Positions 1,986 to 10,275 of a stretch of 34,215 nucleotides of DNA are shown in pieces. The first letter of the stretch is position 1. Each line of letters starts with the position of its first letter. This stretch comes from a virus, in the IMG/VR virus record IMGVR_UViG_3300028394_000016, positions 1 through 34,215 of that record. One strand, written 5' to 3'. The notes under the pieces are model-generated. The model was not told where the DNA came from. It did not search any database and saw only the letters and a list, made by a program, of their open reading frames with translations. Position numbers and translations under genes: made by a program.

Positions 1986-2181
1986 CGGTCAATAGATACC
2001 CCAAAAATCGGTTATCTAATGTTAACCCTAGTACTTTGTTGACTAATTTTCTGAGGGGCTGTAATTGGCTTAAAATATCGGTTATTGTCATCGGTTTATT
2101 TCGGTTAGTGTGTCCGCTAAATTAAGGGATATAATTTAATGATTGGAAAGGGACTGAAACGGCAAAAGTAAAAAACGGTTA
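1986..2181 (+). repeat. CGGTTA direct repeats next to terS
   Basis: The hexamer CGGTTA occurs on the plus strand at 2009-2014, 2079-2084, 2102-2107 and 2176-2181. Near matches are CGGTTTA at 2092-2098 and CGGTC at 1986-1990. All copies are in the same orientation. Spacing is irregular (23, 70, 13, 10 and 74 nt between starts), grouped as singles and a tight cluster of three. Repeated short sites just upstream of terS fit a small-terminase binding region (cosB or pac type). An origin-binding iteron set is the alternative. Confidence 0.5.
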
Positions 2182-2185
2182 CAGT

Positions 2186-2340
2186 ATTATATTAATACAT
2201 ACTTACTACTATAATAGTATATTAATATAGTAATATAATATTACTACTATAATATTGTATTATTAATATAATATTAAATTACTAATTGAACAATGAATAA
2301 TTATATACTTAATACTATTATATAAACGTTAACAATACTT
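2186..2340. other. Extremely AT-rich tract with a direct repeat
   Basis: About 155 bases are nearly free of G and C and consist of TAAT/TATA/TACT words. A 14-mer TTACTACTATAATA is present twice (2203-2216 and 2241-2254), starts 38 nt apart. Between and after the copies are self-complementary ATTAATAT stretches. Such a tract would melt easily and is typical of an unwinding element at an origin or of a divergent promoter region. The function is inferred. Confidence 0.45.
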
Positions 2341-4808: not shown

Positions 4809-5426
4809 ATGAAAGTATTAGAGCTGTTTGCAGGAAGCAGGTCTATTGGCAAAGTAGCTGATAGACTTGCTTTTGACGTTTACTCAAGCGACATTGAGCA
4901 ATTCGGTGGCATAGATTACGTTACCGACATCCTGGATTTTGACCCAACAAAAATCCCTTTTAAGCCAGACATCATTTGGGCATCTTGTCCATGTACTGCG
5001 TTTAGCGTGGCTGCCATTGGTAAAAACTGGACTAAGGTCGGAGATAATTATATCCCCAAAAACCCCAGAGCTGAATTTGGTTTAAAACTAGTCCAAAAAA
5101 CCCTTGAAATAATTGAGCATTTTAACCCCACCTATTTTTTTATAGAAAATCCTAGAGGGATGCTTAGAAAGATGCCTATAATGGCGGATCTTCCAAGACA
5201 AGGCGTAACATATTGTCAATATGGAGATACAAGGATGAAGCCCACAGACATCTGGACTAACAGTACAAAATGGATTCCAAGACCAATGTGTAAAAATGGC
5301 GACCCATGTCATGTAGCTGCTCCCAGAGGATCAAAAACTGGCACACAAGGACTTAAAGGTTCATACGATAGAAGTAAAATACCAGAAGACCTATGTTATG
5401 AGATACTAAAGTCATGTATCATTTAA
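4809..5426 (+). CDS. DNA (cytosine-5) methyltransferase, solo, compact
   Basis: It transfers a methyl group from S-adenosylmethionine to cytosine C5 in DNA. At 205 aa it is compact but carries the core motifs in order: motif I LFAGSRSIG at 6-14, the catalytic Pro-Cys (SCPCTAFS, C62), motif VI ENP at 113-115, and a Q-Y-G-x-x-R block at 137-142 in the place of motif VIII. The target-recognition region must be small (about 145-190) and contains a Cys/His-rich patch CKNGDPCH at 161-168. No restriction endonuclease is adjacent, so it most likely protects the phage genome against host restriction or marks it. It begins directly at the stop of the previous gene. Confidence 0.88.
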   Translation: MKVLELFAGSRSIGKVADRLAFDVYSSDIEQFGGIDYVTDILDFDPTKIPFKPDIIWASCPCTAFSVAAIGKNWTKVGDNYIPKNPRAEFGLKLVQKTLEIIEHFNPTYFFIENPRGMLRKMPIMADLPRQGVTYCQYGDTRMKPTDIWTNSTKWIPRPMCKNGDPCHVAAPRGSKTGTQGLKGSYDRSKIPEDLCYEILKSCII

Positions 5427-5445: not shown

Positions 5446-5477
5446 TTTGAAAGATATCCAAAAACTTCCTAATTTTA
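5446..5477 (+). promoter_or_regulatory. Promoter for the gene at 5508 (Bacteroidota type)
   Basis: TTTG at 5446-5449 and TAATTTTA at 5470-5477 are separated by 20 nt. CAAAAACTT lies between them at 5459-5467. The -7 box ends 31 nt before the ATG, and the leader contains AACAAAAAACCTA directly before the start codon. The layout copies that at 4123-4184. Confidence 0.6.
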
Positions 5478-5948: not shown

Positions 5949-6146
5949 ATGTTAGAAATTAAAGATCACAAAAGCCTTTTTAAATATGGCGACATGAAAA
6001 AAATCATGGAAATCACTGGCTACAGTCGTTATGTTATTGAAACTAGACTAAAGAACAATGACTACGAGATGACAGAGTTGATAAAAACCTTTTACGACAA
6101 AAAACTTGAACTACTTAAAAACCAAATATGGGAGCATCAGAAATAA
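5949..6146 (+). CDS. Putative helix-turn-helix protein (65 aa)
   Basis: Residues 10-40 read as a helix-turn-helix: KYGDMKKIMEITGYSRYVIE followed by TRLKNND. The pattern of kkI-x2-xTGYS-x3-V resembles small phage regulators that use a short HTH. The C-terminal helix (TFYDKKLELLKNQIWEHQ) may dimerise. The last 19 nt overlap the start of the DnaA-like gene, so the two are likely translated together. DNA binding is inferred. Confidence 0.65.
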   Translation: MLEIKDHKSLFKYGDMKKIMEITGYSRYVIETRLKNNDYEMTELIKTFYDKKLELLKNQIWEHQK

Positions 6147-6502
6147 GCTATTACGTTATGCCAGGACTAAAACAAACAGAAGTAAGATTTGACCAAGTTA
6201 TTAAAACGGTATGTGAAGTCATGAATATTGATAGATATAAGTTACTTACGCCAAACAGGAGTAAAAACTTGGTTTTTGGTAGAAATATGTGTTATTTTAT
6301 TTTTAGACGTTATTTTTCGATGACACTAAAAGAAATAGCACAAGCTTTTGGCAGAGATCACACTACTGTTATTCATGGACTTGTAACATTCCAAAATGAC
6401 ATAGAATGTATCAAGTTTTATAAATCTCAGTTCTTAGACGTACAACAAACATTAGGATTACACACAAACAACAAAAAACTCAATATTTTAACAACAAACT
6501 AA
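6128..6502 (+). CDS. Stand-alone DnaA domain IV protein (DNA-binding domain only)
   Basis: The 124-aa protein matches domain IV of the replication initiator DnaA, the part that binds DnaA boxes. The signature is nearly complete: RNMCYFIFRRYFSMTLKEIA (52-71), then AFGRDHTTVIH (73-83), which is the DnaA signature loop and recognition helix. The preceding helix with VMNIDRYKLLTPNR matches the start of domain IV. The AAA+ domain and domains I and II are absent. It could recognise a phage origin, compete with host DnaA, or repress transcription at DnaA boxes. The ATG at 6128 overlaps the previous gene by 19 nt; an in-frame ATG at 6158 is an alternative and would leave domain IV intact. Confidence 0.85.
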   Translation: MGASEISYYVMPGLKQTEVRFDQVIKTVCEVMNIDRYKLLTPNRSKNLVFGRNMCYFIFRRYFSMTLKEIAQAFGRDHTTVIHGLVTFQNDIECIKFYKSQFLDVQQTLGLHTNNKKLNILTTN

Positions 6503-6507
6503 ACATT

Positions 6508-6705
6508 ATGCTATCATCATTCGCAGAGTTAGACGAAACAGACAAAAGACTATTTGTCGCTAAAATCATCCACAACATTAATTACAGCCAATCAAGTTTT
6601 GAGACTGTTATGGCACTTGTTAAGATGTGGGATGAATACCCAAGAAGACAAGCCACTTTTTTTACCAAATTAAACCAAATAACAAATGGAATTGCAAACA
6701 ACTAA
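6508..6705 (+). CDS. Hypothetical protein (65 aa)
   Basis: A small all-helical protein (helices around 7-24, 28-45 and 47-60) that overlaps the start of the next gene by 20 nt. It lies between the DnaA-like and recombination-type genes. There are no catalytic motifs and no membrane segment. Family unknown; it may be an accessory factor for its neighbours. Confidence 0.65.
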   Translation: MLSSFAELDETDKRLFVAKIIHNINYSQSSFETVMALVKMWDEYPRRQATFFTKLNQITNGIANN

Positions 6706-7363
6706 CACACAGATTCAAGCACCTAGTTACCAGATGGTCAACAAGGACTCAATGCTATCCTTATCGAACGAGCTTAAACGCTTTGTAAAGGATGCACACT
6801 TAGTATCTAACATTAAAGGAAAGGACTATTGTAACGTAGAAGCCTGGCAGATGGCAGGAGCTTCATTAGGATTATTTCCTATCATTACAAGCGTACAAGA
6901 CTTATCTAGCGAGAATGAGCTTAAATACATGGCTACTTGCGAAGTTAGATCGTACCAAGACAATAAGTTGGTATCAGTAGGTATCGCAATATGCTCTAAC
7001 AAAGAGGGTAGCAAAAAATTCTTTGATGAGTATGCTATCTTATCTATGGCACAAACTAGAGCAGTAGGTAAAGCTTTCCGTAATCAGTTAGCTTGGTTGA
7101 TGAAAGCTGCTGGATTCGAGGCGACACCTGCTGAAGAGATGGATTTTGTACATGAAGAGCCAAAAAAACCCTCAAAGCCAGTACAAACAGTTGTAGCTGA
7201 GATTATTGAAGAAGCTTTTGATAGAGATTCTATAATGATGGATGTTGCTAAATGTACTAAGCTAAAACAATTAACAGATGTTTACTTTACATACAAGCAA
7301 ACATTTGATGCTGATGAAACATTGATGAAGGTATTAAAAATGAAAAAAGAAAACCTAAAATAA
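6686..7363 (+). CDS. Possible ssDNA-annealing/recombination-type protein (225 aa)
   Basis: The core (about 25-155) contains KDYCNVEAWQMAGASLGLFP and a DEYAILSMAQTRAVGKAFRN block followed by AAGFEATPAEEM. The SMAQTRAxGKAxR and GFEATPAEEM blocks recur in phage proteins of many hosts that sit in recombination or replication modules. The arrangement is reminiscent of Rad52/Sak-type annealing proteins, but I cannot assign it to a defined superfamily by reading alone. The C-terminal 70 residues are a charged linker and a helical tail. The gene overlaps its upstream neighbour by 20 nt and precedes the next by a single base. Confidence 0.6.
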   Translation: MELQTTNTQIQAPSYQMVNKDSMLSLSNELKRFVKDAHLVSNIKGKDYCNVEAWQMAGASLGLFPIITSVQDLSSENELKYMATCEVRSYQDNKLVSVGIAICSNKEGSKKFFDEYAILSMAQTRAVGKAFRNQLAWLMKAAGFEATPAEEMDFVHEEPKKPSKPVQTVVAEIIEEAFDRDSIMMDVAKCTKLKQLTDVYFTYKQTFDADETLMKVLKMKKENLK

Positions 7364-7364
7364 A

Positions 7365-7829
7365 ATGAACCTAACATTATTACCAAAAGTAGAACTAAGT
7401 TCTATAGAACCAAACAAATTTGCCATTGAGTTAATCAAAACGCAGATAGTAAATCACTTTACAGAAACTGGTGAGTCACCATTAGAACTCCTCGTTAAGT
7501 CAGAGGCTGTTGTACAGCTTTTAGAAGGCATTAGAGCTGATTTAAAGGAGTTAGTACTAGATGAGCTTAGTAAGTATCCTGGAGGCAAGGCTGAGGTCTT
7601 AGGAAGCGAAATGGCTAAGTTTGAATCAGGAGTCAAGTACATCTATGACCAAGATTATACTTGGGGCAAGATGAATGAGCAATTAGAATCAATAAGATTT
7701 GCTATTAAGGAAAGGGAAAGGATGCTAAGAACCTTACCTACTGCTATGGTTGATCCTGAAACTGGGGAGATGGTACACCCAGCTCCTAGAATTAGTACAA
7801 CAACCTTTAAGATTAATTTAAAGAAGTAA
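7365..7829 (+). CDS. Conserved-type phage protein (154 aa), unknown function
   Basis: The protein is helical in the first 70 residues and contains KAEVLGSEMAKFESGVKYIY, a DYTWGKMNEQLESIRFAIKERE helix, and the C-terminal block DPETGEMVHPAPRISTTTF. The DPETGE..PAPR.STT ending recurs in small phage proteins next to recombination genes, from memory. It is encoded immediately after the annealing-type protein and is probably its functional partner. No catalytic residues are evident. A large stem-loop follows the gene. Confidence 0.7.
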   Translation: MNLTLLPKVELSSIEPNKFAIELIKTQIVNHFTETGESPLELLVKSEAVVQLLEGIRADLKELVLDELSKYPGGKAEVLGSEMAKFESGVKYIYDQDYTWGKMNEQLESIRFAIKERERMLRTLPTAMVDPETGEMVHPAPRISTTTFKINLKK

Positions 7830-8237: not shown

Positions 8238-8288
8238 TGCCCTTGATATGAACCCCCAATCCGACTGGGGGGAATTTGATAGGGCACT
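8238..8288 (+). other. Two-tier stem-loop in front of the replication organizer
   Basis: An inner hairpin CCCCCA/TGGGGG with a 7-nt loop is enclosed by a symmetric 9 x 9 internal loop and an outer stem TGCCCT/AGGGCA. The outer stem is followed by CTTTTATTTTATG. It may be a terminator for upstream transcription, or a translational control element for the gene starting at 8297. It also overlaps an alternative TTG start at 8276, which argues against that start. Confidence 0.55.
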
Positions 8289-8296
8289 TTTATTTT

Positions 8297-8941
8297 ATGA
8301 ATACAGGAATGATTGTTAAGAGCAGATCGGCTGAGAAGTACACTGCCATCGACAACGAGATTATTAGGAATGTCGAGTTAACACTAGAGGAGAGAGGATT
8401 ATTAATTTATTTGCTTAGTATGAGGCATGATTGGGTAGTTTATAAAACTAACTTACATGAACGATTAGGTTGCACCAAAGGTCAACTAGACAGAGTTTTT
8501 AAGGGATTACAAACCAAGAACTATATCTTATCTGTAAAGGTCATAAATGAGCTTGGAAGGTTTACAGGATGGAATCATGTAGTATATGATACACCAGCAA
8601 TCCGAGATGATAAATCACCGAGTTCTATAAATGCCGAAGTCGGTGAAAGTGCTCCTATAAGTAATACTAATACAATTAATACTAAATTAAATATTAAGAA
8701 AACTAAGTTTATAAGACCAACAGCTAATGAGATAGACTTATATGCCAAAGAAATAGGCTTTTTAACTCTTGATGCTTCTTACTTCTTAGACCATTATGAT
8801 TCTAATGGTTGGTTAATAGGTAAAAACCCCATGAAAGATTGGAAGGCTACTGTAAGAACTTGGAAAAGGAATAGTTCCAAATTTAATCAGCAATCTGATG
8901 TACCTACAAACAAAATCACTACACAAATTAAACTTAAATGA
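8297..8941 (+). CDS. Replication organizer / HTH replication protein (214 aa)
   Basis: Probably recognises the phage origin and brings in the helicase encoded next. Residues 5-85 form a winged helix-turn-helix: KSRSAEKYTAIDNEIIRN, then TLEERGLLIYLLSMRHDWVV, then LHERLGCTKGQLDRVFKGLQ. A polar linker (about 100-145) leads to a DnaD-like C-terminal module with GWLIGKNPMKDWKATVRTW. This two-part layout is typical of phage replisome organizers. The ATG at 8297 is chosen over a TTG at 8276 that lies in a stable hairpin; an ATG at 8309 is also possible. The stop codon overlaps the helicase start (ATGA), indicating coupled translation. Confidence 0.85.
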   Translation: MNTGMIVKSRSAEKYTAIDNEIIRNVELTLEERGLLIYLLSMRHDWVVYKTNLHERLGCTKGQLDRVFKGLQTKNYILSVKVINELGRFTGWNHVVYDTPAIRDDKSPSSINAEVGESAPISNTNTINTKLNIKKTKFIRPTANEIDLYAKEIGFLTLDASYFLDHYDSNGWLIGKNPMKDWKATVRTWKRNSSKFNQQSDVPTNKITTQIKLK

Positions 8942-10275
8942 TTGCTATAAACCTACCAAAAGCTTTAGATATTGAATCTAACATACTTGGTGCTTTGCTT
9001 TTAGATAAAAGGACTATACCATTGGTTATAGGTCATCTAAAAACTGAGATATTTTACGATCTGAAGCACCAAAAAATCTTTAACGCTATAAAAGAGATGT
9101 ACGATACTAACGTGTCTATAGACCTTTCTACTGTAGCTCAAAAACTTTCGCAAGACAAGGAAATGCAAGATATTGGTGGAGCTTATTACCTATCAAAGTT
9201 AACTGATAATGTAATTTCTAGCCATCATATTAACACTCATATTGAGATTGTTATAGAAATGTATAAGAAGCGTGAAGCTTATAAAGTACTTAGAATAGCT
9301 GAGAATCAATGTCTTGACAATGATAGTCAAGCTATAGATTTACTTTCTGACTTAAATAGTCAACTTATAGGTTTACTAGAATATGGAAATCTATATGAGA
9401 AAAGCATAACTGATGTAGTTATGGCTATAAACTATGCTCGTGATAAGGCACAAAATGGTGAGTTATTAGGCTTTAATACTGGATTTCAAGAGCTAAACAA
9501 AACCATAGCAGGATGGTGTAAACCTGACCTATGTATTATAGCTGCAAGACCTGGAGCTGGTAAGACTGCAATGATGCTTTCTAGTGTTTATCACTTAGCT
9601 ATTTTAAATAACGTTCCTACGGCTATTTTTAGCCTTGAAATGAGCTCCGAGCAGTTAGTTGAAAGGTTAGAGTCAATAACGAGTCAAGTGCCCTTAAAAA
9701 GCCTTAGAACGAACAATTTGAATGATTACGAAAGAAAGGTACTTTTAAAGACAGATGACAAGATAATCACAGCACCCATCTACATAGAAGATACTGGAGG
9801 AATCAGTATCTCACAACTCAGAGCTAAGGCTACCATTTTGAAGCAGAAGTATGGCATTAAGATTATTTTCTTAGATTATCTTCAGTTAATGAGTGGACAA
9901 GGTAAGGCTAACCAGAACCGAGAGCAAGAGGTTAGTAATATAAGCCGAAGCCTTAAAGCCTTAGCCAAAGAGTTGGAAGTGCCTATTATTGCTTTATCAC
10001 AGTTATCTAGAAAGGTAGAAGAACGAGCTGACAAGCTACCAATGTTGTCTGATCTTAGAGAATCTGGTAGTATTGAGCAAGATGCTGACATTGTTATTAT
10101 GCTTATGAGACCATCTTACTACGAGATGAAAGATTCTGTAGAAATAGGTGGTAAGCAGTACAATCCTGATGACCTTGTTATCGTTAAGGTAGAGAAGAAT
10201 AGACATGGACGTACTGGTAACTTAGCTGTAAGATTTATTGGAGAAACAACCACATTTGAAGACTATAAACATTAA
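8938..10275 (+). CDS. dnaB: Replicative DNA helicase, DnaB family
   Basis: A hexameric 5'-3' helicase that unwinds the phage replication fork. The 445-aa protein has the full DnaB layout: N-terminal helical domain (about 8-110), linker, and RecA-like domain from about 178. The Walker A is ARPGAGKT at 203-210 and the Walker B is IIFLDY at 309-314. A SLEMSSEQL block is at 232-240 and LSQLSRKVEERADKLPML at 353-370. The KVEKNRHGRTG segment (417-427) supplies the conserved arginine finger region. It overlaps the replication organizer by 4 nt. No primase is encoded, so host primase is presumably used. Confidence 0.96.
   Translation: MIAINLPKALDIESNILGALLLDKRTIPLVIGHLKTEIFYDLKHQKIFNAIKEMYDTNVSIDLSTVAQKLSQDKEMQDIGGAYYLSKLTDNVISSHHINTHIEIVIEMYKKREAYKVLRIAENQCLDNDSQAIDLLSDLNSQLIGLLEYGNLYEKSITDVVMAINYARDKAQNGELLGFNTGFQELNKTIAGWCKPDLCIIAARPGAGKTAMMLSSVYHLAILNNVPTAIFSLEMSSEQLVERLESITSQVPLKSLRTNNLNDYERKVLLKTDDKIITAPIYIEDTGGISISQLRAKATILKQKYGIKIIFLDYLQLMSGQGKANQNREQEVSNISRSLKALAKELEVPIIALSQLSRKVEERADKLPMLSDLRESGSIEQDADIVIMLMRPSYYEMKDSVEIGGKQYNPDDLVIVKVEKNRHGRTGNLAVRFIGETTTFEDYKH

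Follow-up and report, generated by a model that had tools for sequence, protein, structure and literature searches.

The gene at positions 6128 to 6502 of the DNA analysed here (a phage record of 34,215 nucleotides, IMGVR_UViG_3300028394_000016, hereafter the window) encodes a protein that is confirmed, by its sequence and predicted fold, as a DnaA domain IV standing without the AAA+ motor. Tentatively, and with less than even confidence, this protein is read as an early sequence-specific DNA-binding regulator endowed with a docking tail and comparable to GafY in its mode of action. The features on which the following sections draw are collected in Table 1.

Table 1. Position of the stand-alone domain IV gene, its parts and its neighbours in the window
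Feature	Position	Strand	Basis or remark
Promoter element TAATTTTA, -7-like, conserved 5' of the operon to which the domain IV gene belongs	5470..5477	+	
Conserved gene of 65 aa whose end overlaps the beginning of the domain IV gene	5949..6146	+	no Pfam match
Stand-alone DnaA domain IV protein gene	6128..6502	+	124 aa, ATG start
Coding sequence of the N-terminal tail ISYYVMPGLK (conserved; residues 6-15)	6143..6172	+	alignment with family B
Bac_DnaA_C (PF08299) domain	6191..6379	+	profile match
Recognition-helix signature RDHTTVIH, residues 76-83	6353..6376	+	alignments
Conserved 65-aa gene directly downstream, in 31 contigs	6508..6705	+	no family
Gene in the slot occupied by the ERF annealing protein in family B	6686..7363	+	position
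Relative of the family B 139-aa gene that follows ERF	7365..7829	+	hhalign 90.6%, E 1.3e-6
DnaD/O-like, replication-initiation-like protein	8276..8941	+	likely initiator or loader
DnaB replicative helicase	8938..10275	+	profile match

A DnaA domain IV without the AAA+ motor

Residues 22-84 of the protein match PF08299 with 66.4 bits for a cut-off of 31.5 (E 2.2e-18), and the Pfam search detected neither an AAA+ nor a DnaA N-terminal domain. The models of full-length DnaA remain far under threshold, TIGR00362 giving 62 bits for a cut-off of 343.9: the protein has in common with full-length DnaA the domain IV fold and the recognition residues, but not domains I-III, and by these profiles it lacks the AAA+/oligomerisation part of a DnaA replication initiator. 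The claim of a motor-less DnaA domain IV, made in the preliminary description, is thereby upheld by the Pfam score, the absence of AAA+ and the intact recognition residues. That description had also named a different fold among the results that would speak against it. With phage homologues as input, an AlphaFold2 model reaches a pLDDT of 75.6 overall and of about 79-92 per 10-residue block between residues 21 and 110, and its top Foldseek matches are 3PVP, 1J1V and other DnaA chains, with a TM of 0.83 on 1J1V, so that the structure prediction returned the fold of DnaA domain IV. The structure 1J1V, in which domain IV of the E. coli DnaA is bound to its box, is also the best solved relative of the protein.

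In the alignment to the E. coli DnaA, R44 corresponds to R399, R60 to K415, D77 to D433, H78 to H434, T79 to T435, T80 to T436, and H83 to H439, and five of these residues (R44, D77, H78, T79, and H83) vary little or not at all among distant stand-alone homologues and the E. coli DnaA. On the E. coli side, K415, D433, H434, T436, and H439 count among the DNA contacts in the 1J1V structure. R399, T435, R442, and K443 have been described as DNA contacts (PMC9638019), the backbone-contact positions R442 and K443 being aligned with V86 and T87 of the window protein. Judged from these alignments, the protein carries the DNA-contacting residues by which domain IV is recognised; since the recognition residues are kept, it should read something near a DnaA box, a sequence close to this box being its predicted target.

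The N-terminal tail is shared with a sister family of phages (family B, comprising L037 and its relatives), where it reads MSYWTVPSRK, the common pattern being S-Y-[YW]-x-x-P, and it was not seen in the aligned proteins of the Pelagibacter HTVC010P-type phages and of Cellulophaga phi19:3. With a pLDDT below 50 at residues 1-18 of the model, the tail is probably disordered, and it can be regarded as a candidate docking peptide. In one contig (L034:4307-4639), a deletion, or a misassembly, has joined the 65-aa gene lying upstream with that of domain IV, the tail and the first helix being lost.

Conservation and the early operon

The window is a closed phage genome of 34,088 bp with a terminal repeat of 127 bp (positions 1-127 recur at the far end), and the join is crossed by the related contig L002. 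The domain IV gene is matched in 34 viral contigs of the same family (L002-L035) at 67-100% identity, all aligned copies being intact except those of L032, truncated by the contig end, and L034, rearranged as mentioned above. This conservation, together with a dN/dS of 0.10-0.22 reflecting purifying selection, excludes a chance open reading frame.

The gene belongs to an early operon that it shares with a DnaD/O-like initiator gene, DnaB, and VRR-NUC, the DnaD/O-like product being probably the phage's initiator or loader. The promoter element of this operon, TAATTTTA, lies 26-30 nt before the operon start codon in the window's family; the -7 consensus of flavobacterial sigma-A reads TAnnTTTG (PMC9723704). 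As this element is flavobacterial-like, and as the window portal is closest to those of Cellulophaga phages, a Bacteroidota host is likely; no prophage relatives that could reveal the host were found, nor any Rfam RNA.

In family B, the domain IV protein is 25% identical to that of the window, and its gene lies directly 5' of that of an ERF annealing protein (PF04404), which in several members is followed by the relative of the window's 7365-7829 gene; the 139-aa member of this latter pair of relatives shows a weak, sub-threshold Sipho_Gp157 match. The gene that occupies the ERF slot in the window was considered as an ERF homologue, an assignment that hhalign, Pfam and PDB profiles do not support, its own model being poor (pLDDT 51.9).

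DnaA boxes in the two families

Neither TTATNCACA nor a perfect TTATCCACA box occurs in the closed genome, in agreement with the preliminary description, which had seen no perfect box and had taken this to make host DNA a possible target. The latter step does not follow from the counts. When compared with permuted words of identical letter content, the one-mismatch boxes of the window number 5 for a mean of 11.9, the fraction being 0.058, whereas the relative L035 has 8 for 7.4 expected and thus no deficit. Since the deficit is marginal in the window and missing in L035, it lends no support to host DNA as the target; box depletion as a mark of host targeting was likewise dismissed for the Pelagibacter and Cellulophaga phages, where it is absent. 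Besides, no DnaA-box cluster was found in the phage genomes compared, the window, L035, and the Pelagibacter and Cellulophaga phages among them, and no iteron array is present near the domain IV gene or in the initiator-like gene.

Within the window's own family (family A), no conserved operator or box near the gene could be demonstrated. Box matches at +64 and +158 downstream were considered as operators and set aside, for they lie in coding DNA and vary with the codons: the +64 match reads TCATCCACA in the majority of members, and neither of the two persists as a full box in the window. In the window, the one-mismatch box TCATCCACA at 6566, within the gene directly downstream, is coding DNA and not specially conserved. 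Another candidate, ATATCCAAA, located just 5' of the operon's TAATTTTA, has two mismatches and varies among relatives, two-mismatch matches being common (130 in the window).

In family B, the short spacer between the domain IV and ERF genes contains TTATTCACA in 19 of the 23 contigs and TTTTCCACA in one. Their common arrangement has a TAnnTTTA element that begins about 9 nt behind the box and is separated by 26-27 nt from the start codon of ERF, and AT-rich DNA trails the box. Several members offer an alternative TAnnTTTA match starting 3 nt after the box, this motif being frequent (1.5 per kb). As the contigs are related, the spacer box counts as one observation, and, being a single box, it suits an operator better than an origin.

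Relatives in other phages and in gene transfer agents

The preliminary description had seen a distinctive strategy in such a protein, a view that is not supported: stand-alone domain IV genes are already known from several groups of phages, and one family of them bears a name in PHROGs. In Pelagibacter phages, the gene follows an ERF-type annealing protein at a distance of a few genes, and the annotated genomes list a nuclease, an annealing protein, and the domain IV gene, with no helicase or polymerase. The gene of Cellulophaga phi19:3 shares its module with RecT and a COG1484 replication protein, and further carriers are a Microcystis phage, the Pseudanabaena phage Pam3, and another environmental group. 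The HTVC010P-type and phi19:3 genes resemble that of the window as stand-alone Bac_DnaA_C genes of early recombination/replication modules with a DHTT-like signature, whereas their proteins are about 16-30% identical to the window protein and have other neighbours. The PHROGs families 27829, 16091, and 34542 consist, like the window protein, of short phage DnaA domain IV proteins; 16091 and 34542 match the window protein weakly, while 27829, named 'DnaA-like replication initiation protein' with a function assigned by similarity, matches the sister families, weakly too. What the present case adds to these is the tail common to both families, the conserved position in front of an annealing-type gene, and the box of the sister family.

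Matches in human-gut 'Bacteriophage sp.' records and in sampled genome collections were discarded, the ORFs read being full-length DnaA of about 414-556 aa. The phage-collection records MT838222, MT835860, MT835965, MT835859, MT839132, MT839073, and MT839682, all entered as 'Bacteriophage sp.', carry a full-length dnaA of bacterial chromosomes, and phage DnaA is therefore overcounted by domain searches of this collection; the matching Campylobacter and Salmonella phage records may likewise be chromosomal dnaA.

The relatives with a tested function come from gene transfer agents (GTA). The DnaA-like N-terminus of GafA is required for GTA promoter activation (PMC9638019). GafY, a DnaA domain IV homologue, is an activator of GTA promoters as well, and an action at oriC is argued against; once tied to copy-number changes, GafY was found to work via GTA genes (PMC9632790). 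In addition, GafY contacts RpoD (PMC11150451). Like the window protein, GafY from Caulobacter and the N-terminal domain of GafA from Rhodobacter are DnaA domain IV-like binders devoid of AAA+. They are part of a phage-like element and act through a partner (RpoD, GafZ, RNAP omega), whereas the window protein, compared with GafY by description, stems from a different phage lineage, its early operon being shared with genes for a helicase and in the annealing slot. No partner resembling GafZ was recognised, GafZ being known by description only, and the neighbours at 5949 and 6508 have no Pfam match. Phage genomes annotated with 'DnaA' because of this domain are read as carriers of an initiator, but GafA and GafY, the only relatives found with a tested function, activate transcription.

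Possible roles of the protein

According to the regulator reading, domain IV would recognise a DnaA-box-like operator on the phage DNA while the tail would dock onto a partner, probably the transcription machinery. Occupancy of the operator would then most likely tune the transcription of the phage recombination/replication genes or trigger a later operon, the mode being modelled on GafY and GafA and the direction of regulation being one that we infer. The fold, the kept recognition residues, the selection, the genomic slot, and the sister-family box by a promoter-like element are seen directly. Regulation is favoured by the single box next to this element, the probable docking tail, and the lack of box clusters; besides, the tested relatives activate transcription, and the phage encodes an initiator-like protein and a DnaB of its own. 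On the other hand, the neighbours are recombination/replication genes rather than structural ones, and family A has no demonstrable operator.

It is because of these neighbours that a role at the origin has to be weighed, in which the protein would bind a phage site and its tail would bring the DnaD/O-like protein, the helicase, or the annealing protein for the start of replication. Such an origin marker, which is considered somewhat less likely than regulation, would fit the operon shared with the initiator-like gene, DnaB, and VRR-NUC, the position next to ERF in family B and near an ERF-type protein in Pelagibacter phages, whose listed genes include neither helicase nor polymerase, as well as the AT-rich DNA that follows the family B box and the AT-rich repeated region of the window (2180-2285). 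However, the phage genomes have neither a DnaA-box cluster nor an iteron array near the gene, the AAA+ part that serves oligomerisation and unwinding is missing, and the phage has another initiator candidate. A further proposal, that of a minimal replication-takeover factor that would either compete with the host DnaA at chromosomal boxes or, through its tail, steer replication proteins of the host or the phage to a phage site, is regarded as unlikely.

Blocking of the host, where the protein would occupy the DnaA boxes of oriC, halt chromosome initiation, and free the machinery for the phage, is quite improbable: the kept recognition residues, the absence of AAA+, and the absence of TTATNCACA from the phage would suit it, but the near-box deficit is marginal and not common to L035, the sister phages have a box beside the gene that an anti-host titrator would not need, and GafY acts through GTA genes instead. 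Equally little probability is given to the reuse of the domain, with a changed specificity, in the annealing-protein module, for instance in guiding recombination. The position by annealing-type genes, conserved in unrelated phages, the change of R442/K443 to V86/T87, and the fusion of DnaA domain IV to TnpA-REP-like HuH proteins (PMC6006769) point in this direction, whereas the base-contacting residues are unchanged and a recombination role has no direct support. Of the preliminary reading, the motor-less domain IV beside a DnaD/O-like initiator and DnaB stands, its distinctiveness and its inference of host DNA do not, and control of transcription had not been considered. With its tail, its fixed slot, and a branch carrying a box by a promoter-like element, the gene constitutes a small testable system for deciding between these roles.

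Other features of the genome

Positions 4809-5426 encode a C5 cytosine methylase of 205 aa. Its match to the Pfam profile, which has 324 positions, is confined to positions 33-116, and on this sequence comparison the methylase is possibly reduced or inactive. Between the divergent early and late units, a non-coding stretch (2180-2290) is AT-rich, repeated, and palindromic (TACTACTATAATAGTA...); it is AT-rich in all aligned relatives while its sequence varies, and it is a possible origin or unwinding region. Finally, a highly conserved non-coding block (1878-1940), located just 5' of the leftward late operon on the side of the terminase small subunit, contains minus-strand repeats (TTTTAACATT / TTTAAACATT) spaced by about 10 nt and is a possible late promoter or activator site.
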